A DNA stretch of 64,000 nt from Allobosea psychrotolerans. Its GTDB lineage: Bacteria; Pseudomonadota; Alphaproteobacteria; Rhizobiales; Beijerinckiaceae. Numbering within the stretch: the first letter of the stretch is position 1; each line of letters opens with the position of its first letter. Shown here in pieces: positions 4,236 to 46,219 of the stretch. Made by a program: the position numbers and the translations under genes. The notes below the pieces were generated by a model that was not told the origin of the DNA, made no database searches, and was given only the letters and a program-made list of their open reading frames with translations. The DNA is taken from the NCBI RefSeq assembly GCF_002917105.1, contig NZ_PQFZ01000016.1, positions 62,001-126,000 of the forward strand, in the 5' to 3' direction.

Positions 4236-4800
4236 GGCCCGATTGCCGGCACAACGAAGCAATCGCTTTTCGCCGATCATGTTGAGAAGTTTTTGTGTCG
4301 CTGCGGGCTTGAAGTCCTGCCTCGAGCGATATTTCCGACATCATCCGCTTGATCGATGACACCGCTTTTCAAACGAATCTGCTCGCGCTCAATGCCTCCG
4401 TGAAAGCTGCTCGCGCTGGCGAAGCAGCCAAGATATCTCGAATCAGATCGCCAACTCGACCCAGCAGGTCACCAACGCTGCTCCGGCGAGGTTTGACACC
4501 GCCAAACCATCTGGGTCCTCTGTAACCCGCTCGCTTTTCGGAGGCTTGCCTGGGGATCGAATATCACAAACCGCCGTTCAATCAGCGTATCCGCGTGATA
4601 ATCGGCTGGGAATCGGTCACTGACGTTTCGTCGACATGGGCCTCCGATCGAACGCCATGCCTTCGGCGGTAGTCTATGCCGTGTTCAGTTGCGACTTGGA
4701 CGGCTATAGCCACGTCCTTGAGTGCCGCCTCAAAACCGGCAACGACCGCAGCCCGGCCGCCTGAGCGGCCCCCTCCCGCGACAGGAGCACCGGCACCCTC
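4236..4800. other. 565-base interval without an intact gene
   Basis: Apart from the MCP remnant at 4316-4500 I find no intact coding sequence, RNA or clear promoter here. The last 60 bases lead into the oxidase gene at 4801 with an AGGAG 13 bases before the ATG, which is longer than usual. An antisense frame ending at 4582 looks weakly protein-like but continues as a shadow of the oxidase gene. Confidence 0.5.
4316..4500 (+). pseudogene. Remnant of a methyl-accepting chemotaxis protein signalling domain
   Basis: From 4316 the plus strand reads [20 protein letters not shown] followed by [16 protein letters not shown], which is the conserved hairpin tip of the MCP signalling domain. No start codon, HAMP or membrane segment precedes it. 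After base 4432 the frame slips and continues as [14 protein letters not shown], resembling a more distal MCP segment, so the GRGFAVVA part has been deleted. The consensus glutamate of the I-E-A-A-R motif is replaced by lysine (SVKAARAG). This is a dead fragment, not a gene; the parent receptor cannot be identified. Confidence 0.6.
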
Positions 4801-11634: not shown

Positions 11635-13329
11635 CTAGGCGGCGACGCTGTGCAGGAACTGGTCGACGGTGGCGCGCAGGCGCAGAGCCTGGGCCGCGAC
11701 CTCTCCCGCCGCGCCTCTGACCTGCTCCGCCGACTGCCCGGTCTCCTCGACGCTGTCGGCGAGCACGCTCAGATCGCTCGACACCGACAGGGCCGAGGAG
11801 CTCGCCATGGCGACGCCGCTGGCGATCTCGCCGGTCGCAATGGCCTGCTGCTCGATCGAGGTCGCGACCGAATTGGCGAAGCTCTCGATCGCGCCCATGC
11901 GCTCGGCGATGTTCTGGATCGCACCGACGACCTCGCCGGTCGCGCCCTGGATGGCGCCGACCTGGGCGACGATGCGGTCGGTCGCGTCCGCCGTCTGCGA
12001 AGCGAGACTCTTGACCTCGGCGGCGACGACCGCAAAACCGCGCCCGGCCTCGCCGGCGCGGGCCGCTTCGATGGTCGCGTTCAGCGCCAGGAGATTGGTC
12101 TGGGCCGCGATATCGCGGATCAGGTTCACCACCTCGCCGATGGCGCGCGCCGTCTCGTCGAGCGCACGCACCGAGCTTGCCGTATCGCGCGAGACGGAAG
12201 CCGCTTCGACGATCTCGGCACGGACGCGCCGGACCTGGAACTCGACCTCGCGAATGGCCGCGCCCATCTCCTCGGCCGCCTGGGCGGCGTTCTCGACATT
12301 GACGGACGCCCCTTGTGAGTTCTGCGCGGCGCGCGCCGCACGGCCCGAGGATTCCGCCGCCACGCGGGCTAGGCCGTCGGAGGCCTCGCTCATCCGGTCG
12401 GCATTGCTCTTGAAGGCTTCGAGCGCGACGCCGACCTCGGCGCGGAACAGCGCGATCGCCTCATCGACCCGCTGCTGGTGCTGGCGACGCTCGGCTTCGG
12501 AGACATGCTGCTTCTCCTGCAGGACCGCGCGCTCGCCGAGCCGAACCTTCAGAATGCCGAGCGCATGGGCGATGGCGCCGATCTCGTCACGCCGGCCGAG
12601 TGCGTCGATCGGCGTGTCGAGCTTGCCGTCAGAGATGCTGACGATCGCCCGCGTCATGCTTTTCAGCGGCTTCATGGTGCGCGAGAGCGAGATCCAGAGC
12701 AGCGGCCCCAGGACCAGCAGGATGGCGACGCCGAAGCCGATCGTCGCGACCTGTTCCCAGGTCGACCTCGCGACCAGGCGCGTCTTGTCGAATCGGATCG
12801 CGATATAGCCGATCTGCTTCTGGATTCCGCCGATCTTCACCACATGCAGCTTCGTGACATAGGTCTGATCCTCGATCTCGGTCGAGGTCACGCCGGCCAT
12901 GACGTCCCAGGGCGGACGGCCGAGCGCGGCGGCCAGCGCACGCGGTGTCAGCGAGAGGCGCGCCTCTTCGGTCCGACCGGCGCTCGCCAGGATCGAAAGA
13001 TCGTCGGCCACGATGCCGGAATCGAAATCGGGATCGCGCCGCAGGGATTCCAGGATGTAGCCCAGCGTGGTGGTATCGCGCGCCAGGATCAGCGCCGGCG
13101 ATGCATTGACGACCATGGTGGTCAGCGCGGTCATCTTCTGTTCGAGGTCGCCGTGCGTCTTGGCGTCGTTATAGCGTGCAACGGCGACCACGACGAAAAC
13201 GATGGCGATCGCGACGAGAGCCACCGCCGCGCCAGCGATCTGGCTGCCCAGCGACTGGGTTACGCCTTCCCTGGTCGCGAGCGTTTGGGCAGGGGTTGCC
13301 GCCTTGCCAGCCCGCTTGAACCACTTCAT
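11635..13329 (-). CDS. Methyl-accepting chemotaxis protein
   Basis: 564 aa membrane receptor feeding the CheA/CheW pathway. One helix lies near residues 30-55 ([19 protein letters not shown]), then a periplasmic sensor of about 130 residues, a second helix ([18 protein letters not shown]), a HAMP linker, and the cytoplasmic signalling coil with hairpin tip [20 protein letters not shown] followed by [15 protein letters not shown]. The start at 13329 (MKWFKRAG) is chosen over 13386 because it gives a basic N-terminus before the helix and has GGGGAG upstream. No CheR-docking pentapeptide is evident at the C-terminus. The ligand is unknown. Confidence 0.92.
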
Positions 13330-32697: not shown

Positions 32698-33075
32698 TCA
32701 GGCAGCTTTGGGCTCGGCAGCGGCGAGCGCGCCCTTGACCGTCTCGACCACGGCGGCGAAGGCCGCAGCGTCGTCGATGGCCATGGCCGACAGGGTCTTG
32801 CGGTCCAGCTCGAGGCCGGCCTTGTGCAGGCCGTTGATGAACATCGAGTAGACCAGGCCGTGCTCACGCACCGCAGCGTTCAGGCGCTGGATCCAGAGCG
32901 CGCGGAACGAGCGCTTCCGATTCTTGCGGTCGCGATAGGCGTATTGCATCGAGCGATCGACGGCCGCCTTGGCGGCGCGGATCGTGTTCTTGCGGCGGCC
33001 ATAGAAGCCCTTGGCGGCCTTGAGTGTCTTCTTGTGCTTGGCATGGGACGTTACGCCCCGTTTCACGCGAGCCAT
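32698..33075 (-). CDS. rplT: 50S ribosomal protein L20
   Basis: 125 aa, very basic N-terminal half ([40 protein letters not shown]) that threads into 23S rRNA, then the globular [20 protein letters not shown] region. Length and sequence are typical. It is 28 bases downstream of rpmI with GGAG eight bases before the ATG. A terminator follows, separating it from the pheS-pheT genes further on. Confidence 0.98.
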
Positions 33076-33304: not shown

Positions 33305-33583
33305 TTCAGCTCCTCATTGGTCGCGGACGCGCGAATTGCGCCGCTTTCAGTTTTGCTTGTTCAAGAAGTGCTCTTGGGGAAGCAAAGATCGATCGCCACG
33401 GCAGCCCTTATCAGCCGGGCGATCGAAGGCCGCGCGTATGACAGAAAAGCCGCGCTATGGCAAGCGCGCGACAAGGGCTCCGCGACAAGCCGCTTGACGA
33501 TATCCGGGGAACGAGCGCCAACACGTCACGACAACGTCTCACAGGGCTCGCTAAGAAGCCCACTCTACCAGAGAGGAAACATC

Positions 33584-34606
33584 ATGCGAATTTCAGTGGC
33601 CGGATTCCTTGCCGGCATCGTCCTGAGCACGGTGGCCAGCGCGCCTGCCCTCGCCCAGTCGACGCTCGACAAGATCAAGCAACGCGGCCAGATCATCTGC
33701 GGCACCAGCGAGGGCGTTCCCGGCTTCTCCCTGCAGGACGCCAGCGGCGCCTGGAAGGGCTTCGATACCGATATCTGCCGCGCACTCGCAGCCGCCATCT
33801 TCAACGACCCCGAAAAGGCCTCCTACCTCTCGCTCTCGAGCAAGAACCGGCTGGTGGCGCTGCAGAGCGGCGAGATCGATGTGCTGGCCCGCACGACGAC
33901 CTGGACCCTTGGGCGCGATGTCGGCCAGGGCCTGACCTTCACCGCCGTCAACTACTATGACGGCCAGGGCTTCATCCTGCGCAAGAAGCTGAATGTCGCC
34001 AGCGTCAAGGACCTCAACGGCGCTTCGATCTGCGTCGCCCAGGGCACGACGACCGAGCTCAACCTCGCCGATTACGGCCGCACCCACGGCATCAAATTCG
34101 AGACCGTCGCTTTCGCGACGCTGGAAGATACCGTGCAGGCCTATGAGGCGGGGCGCTGCGACGCCTATACCACCGATCTCTCGGCGCTGGCTGGAACGCG
34201 CAGCCGCCTGAAGGCCCCTGACGAGCATGTCCTGCTCGGCGAGGTGATCTCGAAGGAGCCGCTCGGTCCCTGGGTCCGCAAGAACGATCAGGCCTGGTTC
34301 GACATCGTGCGCTGGACGGTCTTTGCCCTGGTGAACGCCGAAGAGCTCGGCGTCACCCAGGCCAATGTCGCCGAGATGCTCAACTCCAAGAACCCGGAAA
34401 TCCGCCGCCTGCTCGGAGCCGAGGGCAAATTCGGCGAGGCGCTCGGCCTCAGCAACGACTGGGTCGTGCGCATCATCAAGGCCGTCGGCAATTACGGCGA
34501 GAGCTTCGAGCGCAATTTCGGGGTGAAATCGGGCATCAACCTGCCGCGCGGCGTCAACAAGCTCTGGACTGCTGGCGGGCTGCTATTCGCGCCGCCGATC
34601 CGCTGA
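33584..34606 (+). CDS. Amino-acid ABC transporter substrate-binding protein (AapJ/BztA type), orphan copy 1
   Basis: 340 aa with a Sec signal peptide (FLAGIVLSTVASAPALAQS, cleavage about residue 23). The mature protein has the family motifs KQRGQIICGTSEGVPGFS, WKGFDTDICRALAAAIF, ARTTTWTLGRDVGQGL, VAQGTTTELNLADY and NYGESFERNFG, as in general L-amino-acid binding proteins. No permease or ATPase gene is adjacent, so it must work with a transporter encoded elsewhere or as a sensor. The start at 33584 has GAGAGGAAAC upstream. A close paralogue is at 42972-44000. Confidence 0.92.
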   Translation: MRISVAGFLAGIVLSTVASAPALAQSTLDKIKQRGQIICGTSEGVPGFSLQDASGAWKGFDTDICRALAAAIFNDPEKASYLSLSSKNRLVALQSGEIDVLARTTTWTLGRDVGQGLTFTAVNYYDGQGFILRKKLNVASVKDLNGASICVAQGTTTELNLADYGRTHGIKFETVAFATLEDTVQAYEAGRCDAYTTDLSALAGTRSRLKAPDEHVLLGEVISKEPLGPWVRKNDQAWFDIVRWTVFALVNAEELGVTQANVAEMLNSKNPEIRRLLGAEGKFGEALGLSNDWVVRIIKAVGNYGESFERNFGVKSGINLPRGVNKLWTAGGLLFAPPIR

Positions 34607-36835: not shown

Positions 36836-37663
36836 ATGACCACGCCCTGCATCATCACCGTCGCCATCACCGGCTCGCTGCCGACAAAGCGCGACAACCC
36901 GGCCGTACCGATCTCGATTTCCGAGCAGATCGAATCCACGCAGGCCGCTTTCGAGGCCGGCGCGACCCTGGCGCATTGCCATGTCCGCAATGACGAGGGT
37001 GCGCCGACCTCCGACCCCGAGCGCTTCGGCCGTTTGCTGGAAGGCCTGCGACGGCATTGCCCCGGCATGATCGTGCAGTTCTCCACCGGCGGGCGCTCCG
37101 GTGCGGGGCGCGAGCGCGGCGGCATGCTCTCGCTGAAGCCCGACATGGCCTCGCTCTCGACCGGCTCCTGCAATTTCCCGACACGCGTCTATGAGAACAG
37201 CCCCGAGCTGGTCGACTGGCTGGCCAGCGAGATGCTCGAGCATGGCGTCAAGCCGGAGATCGAGGCCTTCGACCTTTCGATGATCTTCAAGGCGGTCGAG
37301 ATGAGCATCGCGGGTGCGATCAAGGGGCCGCTGCATGTGCAGTTCGTCATGGGCGTGAAGAACGCGATGCCGGTCAACCGCGGCGCCTTCGAATTCTACA
37401 TCGCGACGCTGAAGCGGCTCGCGCCCGATGCGACCTGGACCGGCGCCGGCATCGGCCGCGACCAGATAACGCTCAACCGCTGGTCGCTCGAGCTCGGCGG
37501 CCATTGCCGCACCGGGCTGGAGGACAATGTCCGGCTCGACCGCGACACGCTCGCGCCGTCCAACGCTGCGCTGGTGAAGCGCGTGGTCGATCTCTGCCCC
37601 GAATACGACCGTCGTCCGGCGACAGCGGCCGAGGCACGCGCCCTGCTCGGCCTCGCAGCCTAG
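36836..37663 (+). CDS. BKACE family beta-keto acid cleavage enzyme (DUF849, Kce-like)
   Basis: 275 aa TIM-barrel zinc enzyme. BKACE proteins condense a beta-keto acid with acetyl-CoA to give acetoacetate and a new CoA ester. Zinc ligands are H47 and H49 in LAHCHVRNDEG and a glutamate in HCRTGLEDNVRL. Other family segments are IVQFSTGGRSGAGRERG, PVNRGAFEFYI and TWTGAGIGRDQ. No lysine-fermentation or carnitine genes adjoin it, so the keto acid is unknown. It stands alone between the reductase and a repeat. Confidence 0.9.
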   Translation: MTTPCIITVAITGSLPTKRDNPAVPISISEQIESTQAAFEAGATLAHCHVRNDEGAPTSDPERFGRLLEGLRRHCPGMIVQFSTGGRSGAGRERGGMLSLKPDMASLSTGSCNFPTRVYENSPELVDWLASEMLEHGVKPEIEAFDLSMIFKAVEMSIAGAIKGPLHVQFVMGVKNAMPVNRGAFEFYIATLKRLAPDATWTGAGIGRDQITLNRWSLELGGHCRTGLEDNVRLDRDTLAPSNAALVKRVVDLCPEYDRRPATAAEARALLGLAA

Positions 37664-37735: not shown

Positions 37736-40330
37736 CTATTCGGCAGCGCGCAGCAGCGTCGGAGCGGGCTCGCCGTCGAGCCGCGCGCCGAGCCTGTCGA
37801 CGTCGAGCAGCATCAGCATGCCGGCCGGCGCCCCTTGCGCATCGCGCGCGGCGACGACGCCGAGCGCGGGGACTTCCTGCTTCGCGGTCAGGTCCCGCAA
37901 GGGCTGCAGTTCCGAGACCGGGATTTCCGGTATCGGGCCGAGCGAATCGACGATGAGCCCGAGCGTCCGGCCGGCCGCGCGCACGATGACGATCTGCTGA
38001 TCCTCAGCGGAGCCATCCGGGATGCCGAGCAGCCGCGCCAGGCGCAGCACCGGCACGGGGTCGCCCTGATGCAGCTTGTAGCCTGCGAGCAGACCGTCTT
38101 CCGCCTGCTTGGCAGAGGGCTTCAGGCCGGCGAGATCGACGGCCTCGACGACATCGCGCGCCTTCACGCCGAGCCAATGCCGGCCGATTTGGAAGGTCGC
38201 GGCCTCGAAGGCCTCGACGCCGTCAGGCAGCCGGCGCGCCGCGATGGCATTGGCTGCCGCGCTCGACGGCCGCGCCCCGGCATCAGAGGCGATATCGCCG
38301 AGCGGCACGACGCAGAGCGCCACCACATCGGCATGATGCCCGTCGCTGGTCTTGTATTCGCGATAGCCCTTGGACAGCGCCGCGCCGACCGCGACATGCC
38401 TGCCCTCGAATGTTCGGATTCCGGCGAGATCGCCCTCATTGGCCAACCCTTGCGGGTCGATGACGATCGGGCTCGGTGCGCCCACAGCGAAGCGCGGCTC
38501 GGTCGAGGAAATGATGCGGCCATCGCCCGCCACGAACAGCGTGAAGGCGCCGGGCAGCGCCGCGCCGGCCTCATCGGCCGGCAGGGAATCCTGCAGGATC
38601 GCGCCGAATTGCGGCGTCGAGTCGAAGACGATCGCAATGCCGCCGACCGACTTGCCGCCAACCACCTTGCCCCCAGCCGGAGCCTGGACGGCGGCCGTAT
38701 AGATCAGGGTCGATGCCTGCCCATAAAGCGGCGAAGGCTCGAAGCCCGACACCGCATAATGCTGGCCCGAGCGCAGCGCCAGGGTCCGCTGCACCCATTC
38801 CGCTGCCAACGTCTCGCCGACCAGATGCGCCTCGGCCGGCTGCGAAACCGCAACGACGACGCCCTTGGCGTCGAACAGGATCAGGTTGCTGTAGACCGTA
38901 TAGAGCGAATTGATCGTCGCCAGGATCTCGCCGCAATGCCGCGCGCCCTCCGGCGTCGGCTCCGAGAGCACCCGTGCGAAGGTCGCGTTCAGCGCCCACC
39001 AGCGGCAATCATTGGCGCGCTCATAGAGGTTGCGGTCCATGACATCGATGGCGAAGGCCGCGCGCGAGCGGCATTTCTCCATGATCGCCGCGACCACGGT
39101 GCGGTGGAGATCGCCGATCGAGGCGTCGAAGACGGCCTGCGTCCTGCGGCCGGCATTGGAGATTTCCCAGAGCAGGATTTTCGAAAAGGCGGCATTGGCG
39201 GCCGTCGATCCGGCCTGGCGGATCGAGCCGTTCCAGACCGAGCGGTTGAGGTCGCGCTGGATCATCGCGGCCTGGCGCGAGACCGTGAGCAGGTCCTCCG
39301 AGAACAGGTCGGAATGACCGGTCACCGCCGCGAGCAGGCCATCGTCGATCCGTGCGCCGAGCGCGCCGTCGCCCTGAGTGAAGGCAGCCTCCAGCGGCAG
39401 CAGGCCGAGCCCGATCCAGCCCGGCCCCATATAGCCCTGATAGCCGGAGCTGCGGCAGGCAACAGCGAGATATTGCCGGCCGCCGAGCTTGAGCACGGGC
39501 TCGCGCCCCTGCAGCGCTGCCGGCGACAGGGCAAGCCCCGCCGGCAGTTGAATGGCGCAGGAGCCGGCGATGACCTCGCCCTGCGGCGTGGCGCAGCCCA
39601 GGATCGTCCAATCATCCTCCGGCAGCAGCTTGCGGAAGATCCCCGCCATCTCGTCGGCGAGGCGGAAGACCAGCACGAGCACGCCGAGCGGGCGCTTGGC
39701 GCGGTCCTCGACGCGCCAGGCATAGACCAGCGACTGCGCCTCCGAGACGAAATCGACCACGCCGTAATGCTCGACATAGGCGCCGCTCGAACTCAGCGCT
39801 TCCTGGATGATGGCGTGCCGCACCGTCTCAGCCGGATGGGGCTGGAGCCTGGCCCGGACCGCACCCTCGCAATCGACCAGGACGATGTCGGAATAGACCG
39901 AATATTTCGCGACATAGTCGCGGAAGCGCGCCTCGATCGCCTCGCGGGCAGCGGGCGTCGGCGTCGCCTCCTCCAGCATCTCGCGGATATCGGTGTCGGC
40001 CGCGAGGAAGCCGATATCGGCCGTGCGCTCGAAGAGATTGCGCACCAGCACGTCGATGGCGTTCTGCGCCTTGGTCCTGAGATCGCTGACGACCTTGTCG
40101 CGCGTCTCGATGGCGAGATGGTTGAGCAGGCTCGCAGTCAATTCCTCGAAGGCGGAGCGTGTGCCCGACATCTCGGTCGCGTTGCCCGAGAGCTGGCCGA
40201 GCAGGGTCAGCGTATCCCACGACGCCTGCAAGCGATCGAAAACCTGCCGATAGTCGTCGATCGCATGCATGTGGCGGATGATGCCCGCCAGCGAAGGATC
40301 GATCGCAATTCCCTTGTGTAGCGTCTGCAA
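37736..40330 (-). CDS. Large soluble protein with two related Cache-like halves and a C-terminal CheW domain
   Basis: 864 aa without transmembrane helices. Two halves repeat one pattern: a helix with RNLFERTADIGFLAADTDIR (98-117) leading to AKYSVYSDIVLVDCEGAV (141-158), and RNLYERANDCRWWALNATF (433-451) leading to SLYTVYSNLILFDAKGVV (475-492). Both resemble Cache-type sensor folds. Residues 708-855 are a CheW domain (FQIGRHWLGVKARDVVEAV, GDPVPVLRLARLLGI, VRAAGRTLGLIVDSLGPI). It may couple a cytoplasmic or bound signal directly to CheA. The start is a TTG at 40330 with GGAAG nine bases upstream; the ATG at 40270 is an alternative. No che genes adjoin it. Confidence 0.8.
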   Translation of the reverse strand: MQTLHKGIAIDPSLAGIIRHMHAIDDYRQVFDRLQASWDTLTLLGQLSGNATEMSGTRSAFEELTASLLNHLAIETRDKVVSDLRTKAQNAIDVLVRNLFERTADIGFLAADTDIREMLEEATPTPAAREAIEARFRDYVAKYSVYSDIVLVDCEGAVRARLQPHPAETVRHAIIQEALSSSGAYVEHYGVVDFVSEAQSLVYAWRVEDRAKRPLGVLVLVFRLADEMAGIFRKLLPEDDWTILGCATPQGEVIAGSCAIQLPAGLALSPAALQGREPVLKLGGRQYLAVACRSSGYQGYMGPGWIGLGLLPLEAAFTQGDGALGARIDDGLLAAVTGHSDLFSEDLLTVSRQAAMIQRDLNRSVWNGSIRQAGSTAANAAFSKILLWEISNAGRRTQAVFDASIGDLHRTVVAAIMEKCRSRAAFAIDVMDRNLYERANDCRWWALNATFARVLSEPTPEGARHCGEILATINSLYTVYSNLILFDAKGVVVAVSQPAEAHLVGETLAAEWVQRTLALRSGQHYAVSGFEPSPLYGQASTLIYTAAVQAPAGGKVVGGKSVGGIAIVFDSTPQFGAILQDSLPADEAGAALPGAFTLFVAGDGRIISSTEPRFAVGAPSPIVIDPQGLANEGDLAGIRTFEGRHVAVGAALSKGYREYKTSDGHHADVVALCVVPLGDIASDAGARPSSAAANAIAARRLPDGVEAFEAATFQIGRHWLGVKARDVVEAVDLAGLKPSAKQAEDGLLAGYKLHQGDPVPVLRLARLLGIPDGSAEDQQIVIVRAAGRTLGLIVDSLGPIPEIPVSELQPLRDLTAKQEVPALGVVAARDAQGAPAGMLMLLDVDRLGARLDGEPAPTLLRAAE

Positions 40331-40697
40331 GGTTGGGCTCTTCCATTCGCGCCAATGGCCGCCTGGGCGAGACCCGGCGGCCGAGAAAAGGCTGAACTCA
40401 ACGCAACCGTTCCAGATCGAACCAAATCATCTGAGCGGCCGATTCGCACCAAGGTCGCCCTGCCCGCAGCGCTCAAATTTGCGGCAAATGCAACGATCAT
40501 TCACAGGGCGCGCGGCCGGCCGGGCGCAAAGCGCTCCACGACGCCGGCAAGCCGCCTCGCGCTGCGCTTTGTGCAGCCCCCCGCCGGGCTGCTCGCGCCT
40601 CGGACCCAATACTGCGATGCGGTCTGCATTGGAATGCATCATTCGTTTCATATGATAATTTAAGAATCATCTGTTTCATTCCATCGCGGATCCCGCT
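40331..40697. other. Divergent intergenic region between CheW-domain gene and RpiR regulator
   Basis: 367 bases without a supported gene. The last 70 bases are markedly AT-rich against the background and hold the repeats at 40630-40683. The rest is GC-rich and shows nothing recognisable. Confidence 0.5.
40630..40683 (+). promoter_or_regulatory. Candidate operator/promoter of the RpiR-led cluster
   Basis: Two direct repeats, ATCATTCGTTTCAT at 40638-40651 and ATCATCTGTTTCAT at 40666-40679, are spaced 28 bases start to start (near three helical turns). They are bracketed by a 7-base inverted repeat, TGGAATG at 40630 and CATTCCA ending 40683. The block lies just before the regulator start and is the most AT-rich stretch nearby, as expected for an autoregulatory operator of an RpiR protein. 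Confidence 0.5.
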
Positions 40698-42931: not shown

Positions 42932-42971
42932 CGTTCCGCGAACCACCCAAACCATAAACAGGGGACTATCC

Positions 42972-44000
42972 ATGAGATTGAAACAATGGCTCATCGGCGC
43001 GGGCCTTTGCCTCGCCGGCGCGTTCTCCGTGACGGCGGCGAACGCCCAGACCTCGACGCTGGAGCGCGTCAAGGCGCGCGGCGAATTGATCTGCGGCAAC
43101 CACATCGCCCTGCCCGGCTTCGGCCTGCAGGGGCCCGACGGGCGCTGGGACGGGCTCGACATCGATCTCTGCCGCGCCGTTGCGGCGGCGATCTTCAACG
43201 ACCCCAACAAGGTCCGCTTCGTGCCGACGACACCGCAGATGCGCTTCGTCGTGGTGCAGGCCGGCGAGGTCGACATGCTCGCCCGCAATGCCACCTACAC
43301 GATGTCGCGCGACACCTCGCAGGGCATGTCCTGGCCGATCATCAATTATTTCGACGGCCAGGGCTTCATGGTGAAGAAGGCGCTCGGCGTCACCGAGGCG
43401 AAGGGGCTGAACAGCGCCTCGATCTGCGTGACGCAAGGCACGACGACCGAGCTCAACCTCGCCGACTTCTTCCGCTCCAATAACCTGAAATACGAGATCA
43501 TCGGATTCTCCACCAATGAAGAGGGCGTCAAGGCGCTGGAGGCCGGGCGCTGCGACGCCTTCACCACCGATTCCTCGGGGCTCGCCGCCGAGCGCCTGAA
43601 GTTCTCCAAGCCGGACGATTTCGTCATCCTGCCGACCCTGATCTCGCGCGAGCCGCTCGGCCCCGCCGTCAAGCGCGGCGACGAGAGCTGGGTCGCCCTG
43701 GTGAAATGGGTGCACTACGCCATGCTCAACGCCGAGGAGTTCGGCGTCACCAAGGCCAATGTCGACGAAATGCTGAAATCCTCGAACCCCGAGATCAAGC
43801 GCCTGCTCGGCGTCGAGGGCAAGTTCGGCGAGGGCCTCGGCCTGACCAACGACTGGGCCTATCGCATCGTCAAGCATATCGGCAATTACGGCGAGAGCTT
43901 CGAGCGCAATGTCGGCATGGGCTCGAAACTGCAGCTCAAGCGCGGCCTCAACGCGCTGGCCTCGCAGGGCGGGCTGCAATACCCACATCCGGTCCGCTGA
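42972..44000 (+). CDS. Amino-acid ABC transporter substrate-binding protein (AapJ/BztA type), orphan copy 2
   Basis: 342 aa with a signal peptide (IGAGLCLAGAFSVTAANAQT). Family motifs KARGELICGNHIALPGFGL, WDGLDIDLCRAVAAAIFND, VTQGTTTELNLADFF and NYGESFERNVG parallel those of the copy at 33584. It lies 40 bases after the aminotransferase stop and 18 before the racemase-like gene, so it belongs to the RpiR-led operon. No permease genes accompany it. The ligand is probably the amino acid handled by the operon. Confidence 0.93.
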   Translation: MRLKQWLIGAGLCLAGAFSVTAANAQTSTLERVKARGELICGNHIALPGFGLQGPDGRWDGLDIDLCRAVAAAIFNDPNKVRFVPTTPQMRFVVVQAGEVDMLARNATYTMSRDTSQGMSWPIINYFDGQGFMVKKALGVTEAKGLNSASICVTQGTTTELNLADFFRSNNLKYEIIGFSTNEEGVKALEAGRCDAFTTDSSGLAAERLKFSKPDDFVILPTLISREPLGPAVKRGDESWVALVKWVHYAMLNAEEFGVTKANVDEMLKSSNPEIKRLLGVEGKFGEGLGLTNDWAYRIVKHIGNYGESFERNVGMGSKLQLKRGLNALASQGGLQYPHPVR

Positions 44001-45536: not shown

Positions 45537-46079
45537 TTATTTGGGCGCGAGCACCATGACCATCTGGCGGCCTTCGAGCTGCCAGTCGCTCTCGACCTTG
45601 GCGACGTCGACGAGGTCGACCTTGACGCGCTCGAGCACCTTCACGCCGAGATCCTGGTGGGCCATCTCACGGCCGCGGAAGCGCAGGGTCACCTTGACCT
45701 TGTCGCCCTCCTCGAAGAAGCCGTGCATGGCCTTCATCTTGACGTCGTAATCGTGCTTGTCGATGCCCGGCCGGAGCTTGATCTCCTTGATCTCGATGGT
45801 GCGCTGTTTCTTGCGCGCCTCGGCCGCCTTCTTCTGCTCGAGAAAGCGGAAGCGGCCATAGTCGAGAATCTTGCAGACCGGAGGCTCGGAGTTGGGGGCG
45901 ATCTCGACCAGGTCGAGACCGGCATCCTCGGCAATCTTCAAGGCCTCGAAGAACGACACCACGCCACGATTGGCGCCGGTATCATCGATGAGCTGGACAT
46001 CGCGGACACCACGAATGTCGCGGTTCGAACGCGGGCCGTCTTTGGTCGGGGTCGGGGCAGCGCGGAAAGGACGACGAAT
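45537..46079 (-). CDS. infC: Translation initiation factor IF-3
   Basis: 180 aa. N domain with [20 protein letters not shown] and [20 protein letters not shown], linker [18 protein letters not shown], and C domain with [20 protein letters not shown] and [17 protein letters not shown]-3 keeps 30S subunits apart from 50S and checks the start codon. The start is the rare codon ATT at 46079 (IRRPFRAAP), with AGGAG nine bases upstream; this discriminating start is the known basis of infC autoregulation. Upstream in-frame codons to 46136 lack a ribosome site. rpmI-rplT, the usual next genes, are 12 kb downstream. Confidence 0.95.
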
Positions 46080-46219
46080 GGGGGTATTCTCCTGTTTCAG
46101 GCGCGAGCAGCGCCGCTGAGCAGACACATTGCACAAAGATGCGCGATGTCAATGTGGGAGGCGGGGAATGACGCAGCAATAGGCATACACCTGCCGCATT
46201 CCACCCCCCTGTTATGCAT

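Follow-up and report, generated by a model that had tools for sequence, protein, structure and literature searches.

What is the work of a protein that joins two sensor modules of a usually extracellular kind to a CheW domain, and in which no membrane-spanning segment is apparent? The question is raised by a gene on the minus strand, at positions 37736..40330 of a 64,000-nucleotide stretch of the Allobosea psychrotolerans genome (NCBI RefSeq assembly GCF_002917105.1, contig NZ_PQFZ01000016.1, positions 62,001 to 126,000), here called the window. A preliminary description, made from the sequence alone, had taken the product to be a soluble tandem of Cache sensors fused to CheW. By comparison of sequences, double-Cache, double-Cache, CheW (dCache-dCache-CheW) proteins form a real family, and this family is associated with nitrogen fixation (nif) genes both by co-occurrence and by neighbours; its genomic company is what is new here. 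With moderate confidence we read the fusion as a soluble cytoplasmic sensor that would feed CheA through a CheW domain of its own and report on a nitrogen-linked state.

The minus strand carries a single open reading frame (ORF) of 864 amino acids with a TTG start; the preliminary description had placed this ORF correctly and omitted its strand. The plus strand of the same interval gives a different, overlapping frame. The TTG agrees with the N-terminus of the family in a 51-member alignment, and a candidate ribosome-binding site read off the sequence, GGAAGAG (40338..40344, minus strand), stands 7 bases upstream of it. The repeated motifs first noticed in the two halves are all present within one residue of their reported places: RNLFERT at residues 97-103 (not from 98), YSVYSDIVLVD at 143-153, RNLYERA at 433-439 and YTVYSNLILFD at 477-487.

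An AlphaFold2 model of the protein, built on a 51-row alignment (mean pLDDT 84.4, pTM 0.78), gives both halves a double PAS-like fold with a long N-terminal helix. Half 1 (residues 75-320; 39371..40108, minus strand) aligns over residues 78-313 to DctB 3e4o (VIA Z 19.6, rmsd 2.5, 211 residues aligned), and half 2 (residues 404-679; 38294..39121, minus strand) over residues 411-679 to DctB 3by9 (VIA Z 19.5, rmsd 3.1, 223 aligned). The top structural row was an integrative McpB-McpC chemoreceptor model, aligned over 371-679 (Z 20.2, rmsd 4.3, 259 aligned). Predicted helices at residues 22-110 (40001..40267, minus strand) run into half 1, and a second long-helix pair at residues 345-446 (38993..39298, minus strand) runs into half 2, both from the secondary structure of the model. 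The elements follow one another in the identical order in a second model, made for the relative at locus L029 (24 rows, pLDDT 82.1). Each half is thus predicted to be a complete double Cache, which gives the protein four PAS-like modules. The halves are homologous to one another (hhalign probability 99.5, E 5e-23), as their reported similarity had suggested. Against Pfam dCache_1 the window protein itself stays under the cut-off (E 0.1, 12.6 bits, cut-off 45); across the family dCache_1 is matched by 50 of 51 members at E up to 1, the best at 1.6e-17. The model, the structural alignments and the family matches together bear out a Cache fold in each half, and the Cache reading survives the search of the predicted structure for a Cache or PAS fold. 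One weak NCBIfam match, to the kinase PhyK at residues 464-554 (E 3.2e-4, 19.4 bits, cut-off 750), was not used.

The claim that the protein lacks a membrane helix also stands: neither a transmembrane segment nor a signal peptide is apparent by Kyte-Doolittle hydropathy, no dedicated predictor having been run. Its highest 19-residue mean is 1.55, at residues 214-232, a predicted strand plus helix of half 1. Across the 51 members this mean reaches at most 2.07; it is above 1.6 in 18 of them, at varying positions that fall mostly in predicted strands of the second half or of CheW; by comparison, two real methyl-accepting chemotaxis proteins (MCPs) score 2.84 and 3.11. The MCP signalling hairpin PF00015 is absent from the window protein at E up to 10, and does not occur among the families listed for the 51 members (25 of 28). 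In Upadhyay et al. (PMC4822843), Cache domains are the dominant extracellular sensors of prokaryotes; the Cache families are principally extracellular, two small ones excepted, and Cache is confidently extracellular in 78%, so that this placement is usual and not universal. The fusion would thereby depart from the usual extracytoplasmic placement, which we do not treat as defining.

The C-terminal CheW domain (residues 706-853; 37772..38215, minus strand) was likewise borne out. PF01584 is matched at residues 711-847 well over its cut-off (E 1.4e-14, 54.3 bits against 23.5), and residues 706-853 of the model align to CheW 2ch4_W (VIA Z 18.0, rmsd 2.1, 139 aligned). In the survey of homologues CheW was found in 51/51 members scanned, beside the 50/51 with dCache_1. 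Whether the CheA-binding residues are kept, a point on which the preliminary description had made its proposal depend, has an ambiguous answer. Glu729 is retained in 49 of the 51 members. The NLRG loop of canonical CheW is the receptor/CheA contact; four ordinary CheWs from the same genome have NLRG or DVRG there, the fusion has YKLHQG, and the key position of the loop is Arg in 17 of 51 members. Because the loop is degenerate while Glu729 is kept, the sequences suggest that the protein may contact CheA but not MCPs, or may dock in another way.

Our scan of genome contigs matched at least 597 stretches, 577 of them with a relative. We retained the 80 best, which make up 79 loci and are skewed to close relatives. 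At all 79 the gene is a single uninterrupted ORF, of 849-1402 amino acids including in-frame upstream extension (those of L017, L025, L055 and L056 reach a contig edge), and relatives from 97% down to 38% identical align across almost the entire length. The nearest among the matches listed, in Bosea sp. OK403, is 97% identical. Hosts include Bosea, Pseudorhodoplanes, Azonexaceae, Rhodocyclaceae, Zoogloeaceae, Gallionellaceae, Thiobacillaceae, Methylophilaceae, methanotrophs, Steroidobacter, Desulfatibacillum, Seleniivibrio and bins of Verrucomicrobiota. Outside the Bosea-side group they belong for the most part to the beta- and gammaproteobacteria, and most have nitrogenase genes. A full-length match is found in 4 of 149 genomes of the window's own taxonomic family. 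A tree of 80 rows, made by a quick method and rooted at the midpoint, groups the Bosea rows together with L021 (Pseudorhodoplanes), L023 (Parasulfuritortus) and L024-L027 (Azonexaceae or like) and separates them from the remaining 60; this grouping and the patchy distribution suggest that the gene was transferred into Bosea. Two Bosea-side loci, L090 and L091, are probably the same as L028 and L020. At E up to 1e-100 the family is matched twice in nine of 47 genomes (G151, G152, G153, G154, G158, G170, G176, G181 and G192; three times in G152), and some of these matches are shorter or diverged.

The link to nitrogen fixation is seen in the flanking genes. By clustering of flanking ORFs, genes of the nif or draG-like type lie beside the fusion in 15 of 83 flank sets (the window's genome and two probable duplicates are counted in the 83, and contig ends shorten many of the flanks). 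Nine of ten chosen neighbours are nifE, nifN, nifD, nifK, nifB or nifX over NCBIfam cut-offs, and the tenth, at L035, falls in the cluster of an L034 gene that matches Pfam NifQ. The nifD/E-cluster members of L040 and L063 are nifE by NCBIfam. At L036 and L050 a draG-like gene, so named from a Pfam ADP_ribosyl_GH (ADP-ribosylglycohydrolase) match in L034, is the sole neighbour of this type. The tree shows 8 changes of the neighbour label, so the nif-neighbour loci are not one clade. The preliminary description had remarked that no chemotaxis genes adjoin the gene, which holds in this genome, and that the fusion would bypass the MCP. The bypass was not borne out: at L029 and L031 an MCP gene lies immediately downstream of the fusion (PF00015 2.7e-40 and 2.8e-42; 1-bp overlap in L029), so that the fusion may work together with MCPs. 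A nifD/E-cluster gene is the next ORF in L029 and lies beyond one opposite-strand ORF in L031. Methylobacillus L068 has an ammonium-transporter gene upstream, with two ORFs between, in a genome without a PF00148 match. Other recurring neighbours are scattered GGDEF-, kinase-, ABC- and efflux-type clusters, at 4-8 loci each and at mixed distances.

Whole genomes show the same association. PF00148 is over cut-off in 37 of 47 non-Bosea fusion genomes. A second set of 33 genomes gave matches in 15. Outside the Bosea-side group 10 of 16 genomes match, all at 1e-113 or better; on the Bosea side 5 of 17 entries match at about 1e-83 to 1e-84, and these matches look like bacteriochlorophyll-type reductases and were not counted as nif (one of the five, G110, looks like the same genome as G208). 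Among 300 genomes of the order of Rhodocyclus (L032), the fusion is present in 37 and nifH is over cut-off in 46; nifH occurs in 21 of the 37 fusion genomes and in 25 of the 263 without it (odds ratio 12.5, Fisher p 2e-10, uncorrected for phylogeny). With 8 already known genomes removed, the counts are 15/29 and 25/263 (p 1.7e-7, likewise uncorrected).

Promoter-like sites point in the same direction. For sigma-54 we searched 150 bases for a -24/-12 consensus, with GG and GC fixed and at least 9 of 12 positions matching. Starts were re-set from a conserved Trp motif, leaving 72 rows with the window included; 11 loci without the Trp pattern were left out (L017, L024, L025, L026, L056, L071, L079, L081, L082, L086 and L088), of which L081, L082 and L086 had scored at least 9 in a first count. 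A sigma-54-type site precedes 26 of the 72 fusion loci, 30-146 bases upstream of the assumed start. In 200 shuffles the mean was 1.6 and no shuffle gave more than 6; of the neighbouring ORFs, a control chosen greedily as longest ORFs and possibly including spurious ones, 26 of 519 had a site. All 26 lie among the 55 loci outside the Bosea-side group; none was found at the 17 inside it (the window, L010-L016, L018-L022, L028 and L090-L092). The first count, which used leftmost starts and a longer stretch, had given 35 of 80 loci at 9 or better and 73 of 600 control ORFs. NifA-type sites (TGT-N10-ACA) occur upstream of 4 of the 26 sigma-54 loci, L023, L034, L053 and L060, a small number that was reached in 1 of 300 shuffles (mean 0.7); three of the four adjoin nif or draG-like genes.

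Taken together, these results lead us to the following interpretation. The two double-Cache halves would sense a small molecule, or small molecules, inside the cell, and the C-terminal CheW would pass the reading straight to CheA or into the CheA/CheW ring of the array, so that swimming would follow the internal metabolic state. Because the gene has a sigma-54-type promoter in many hosts outside the Bosea-side group, NifA-like sites in a few of them, and a place in or next to nif clusters in a number of them, what it senses would most likely be related to nitrogen fixation or the supply of nitrogen. A bolder form, in which a widespread family of cytosolic receptor-adaptors, in diazotrophs under sigma-54/NifA control, senses an internal metabolite related to nitrogen fixation and drives CheA without a membrane receptor, producing taxis to places that allow nitrogen fixation, we consider doubtful.

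Several observations weigh against a nitrogen-sensing receptor-adaptor. Sigma-54 also drives flagellar genes in many bacteria, so the promoter alone is no proof of nitrogen control, and NtrC-type sites are not enriched (1 of 26 loci; 63 of 300 shuffles gave as many, with a mean of 0.24). No nif or draG-like neighbour appears in 68 of the 83 flank sets, nifH is missing from 16 of the 37 fusion genomes among the 300 of the order, and the Fisher p-values are inflated by shared ancestry. No ligand motif was found in the Cache halves, and with the NLRG loop degenerate the ordinary receptor/CheA contacts of CheW may be altered. The window copy, finally, is a side-branch member without nif: its genome has no PF00148 match, and the nif neighbours and sigma-54 or NifA sites that would mark a nitrogen-fixation regulon gene, and that occur in a number of relatives, are found neither beside nor ahead of it.

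Partners for the fusion are at hand. The CheA domain PF02895 is over cut-off in all 50 fusion genomes searched, which cover 50 of the 79 loci (in G150 the match is partial only). The window holds no CheW or CheA place besides the fusion gene, and its genome has 3 CheA places, 9 CheW-domain places (those of CheA included) and 31 MCP matches, 30 of them over cut-off; with all three components present, partners exist in the cell itself. The number of CheA places, at least 2 in 49 of the 50 genomes and 3 in that of the window, is also what would be expected if the fusion were coupled to a non-flagellar CheA system acting on type IV pili, c-di-GMP or gene regulation, its output being other than swimming. 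We regard this as unlikely, since the recurring flank families listed show no link to a particular che cluster and the verified chemotaxis neighbours are the MCPs of L029 and L031 only.

The state of the CheW domain bears on a further alternative, in which the fusion is a brake. Expressed from sigma-54 promoters, it would compete with ordinary CheW for CheA and dissolve or silence the arrays under nitrogen-fixing or microaerobic conditions, the Cache halves serving mainly as bulk or as a switch for the competition. Such a role would suit a domain that keeps the CheW fold while its NLRG loop degenerates, and the bulky N-terminal part could be expected to impede packing of the ring. The distribution of conservation argues otherwise: of 99 invariant columns among the 51 members, 78 fall within the Cache halves and only 4 in CheW, and sensor halves conserved above all else would be needless in a pure competitor. 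A brake therefore seems improbable to us. Invariant polar residues (such as K142, Y143, Y146, Y185, E187, Y203 and R206 in half 1; D432, R433, E437, R438, Y477 and Y480 in half 2) are as expected if these halves have retained a function, to judge from the alignment. That the halves no longer sense, so that the protein is a structural adaptor joining arrays or binding some other protein, is very improbable: the sub-threshold dCache_1 match of the window protein and the want of a ligand motif would fit it, but the polar residues are conserved across phyla and nearly all members match dCache_1, the best of them strongly.

In the window the fusion lies between infC (45537-46136) and rpmI/rplT (rplT at 32698-33075), an operon here split by about 12 kb of unrelated genes, the fusion among them, and the same infC-rplT gap holds it in 12 Bosea-group loci; at L014-L016 little besides the fusion is in the gap. 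In G019, of another genus, infC-rpmI-rplT is contiguous and the fusion is located elsewhere. Four genomes of the same genus lack the fusion: three of them have an infC-rpmI gap of about 2.8-6.8 kb with other DNA inside, and in the fourth (G084) rpmI and rplT were not found in the 16.5 kb covered. Since the gap holds other DNA in fusion-free genomes, the site seems to take up genes and is apparently an insertion-prone one inside a ribosomal-protein operon; a housekeeping context may thus drive expression of the Bosea copy. The nearest MCP match (11740-12186, minus strand, in a 600-amino-acid open frame) is about 25 kb from the fusion, and a short one at 4277-4426 on the plus strand contains two TGA stops. 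On either side of the fusion, at 33581-34606 and 42969-44000, lies a gene for an ABC substrate-binding protein of amino-acid type; the two products share 54% identity. Just past its 3' end, on the opposite strand, is a BKACE-family gene (36836-37663) that matches 3-oxoadipate:acetyl-CoA acetyltransferase over cut-off.

The nearest single-half relatives, L093-L110 (ORFs of 301-459 amino acids) and the plasmid genes L119 and L120, appear from their domain content to be soluble chemoreceptors themselves. In each of the ten scanned, an MCP tip stands at the N-terminus (PF00015 over cut-off) and a dCache comes after it (dCache_1 at E up to 0.02, under cut-off); no transmembrane segment is apparent by Kyte-Doolittle (highest mean 1.59). 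This order, with the tip first and the sensor last, is the reverse of the usual one. Their Cache aligns with the two fusion halves at hhalign probabilities of 99.5 and 99.9. We also considered whether the helix pairs before the Cache halves are degenerate MCP tips, which would make the fusion two mini-chemoreceptors plus CheW, and rejected the idea when it failed its control: with a profile of the mini-MCP hairpin the highest score was 2.3 bits for the family, 3.7 for reversed and 1.0 for shuffled sequences. The hairpin compared with both helical regions by hhalign gave a probability below 1; the regions compared with each other gave 92.4, over a stretch reaching the start of the Cache halves. 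On these comparisons the fusion and the mini-chemoreceptors seem to have only the Cache part in common.

CheW is generally regarded as a passive coupling part. If our reading is right, two double Caches wired to it would make receptor and adaptor one conserved soluble chain, and the nif association would offer a concrete, testable candidate for a connection between nitrogen fixation and chemotaxis. A precedent for such a link is the altered nitrogen fixation of Azospirillum brasilense CheA mutants, reported in PMC8561660. No Cache-Cache-CheW protein is described among the matches listed in the open-licence PMC literature, although an earlier description in print is possible. The Azoarcus BH72 NifA-regulon paper (PMC3916325) contains no occurrence of CheW or Cache; the passages of PMC7184735 and PMC10782961 on arrays and CheA architectures name no such protein, and PMC12889525 concerns heme Cache.

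Among known systems, the extracytoplasmic dCache sensors (DctB 3e4o and 3by9; PctA, PctC, Tlp3) share with the fusion the fold of both halves and the long N-terminal helix, at Z of about 17-20. The fusion differs from them in having no apparent transmembrane helix, its dCaches in tandem, and CheW as output in place of an MCP or kinase. Its C-terminal domain has the fold and family of the CheW scaffold (PF01584; 2ch4, 1k0s, 2qdl), to which it adds about 700 sensor residues while not keeping the ordinary NLRG loop. CheV, which is CheW plus a receiver, likewise joins CheW to a second regulatory part; the fusion, however, has its sensor halves N-terminal and gives no receiver match at E up to 10. 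It is thus not CheV, lacking a receiver, and not an MCP, lacking the signalling hairpin. The mini-chemoreceptors have a Cache alignable to each half and, like the fusion, no apparent transmembrane helix; they dock by the MCP tip, whereas the fusion, with two halves instead of one, would dock, if at all, by CheW.

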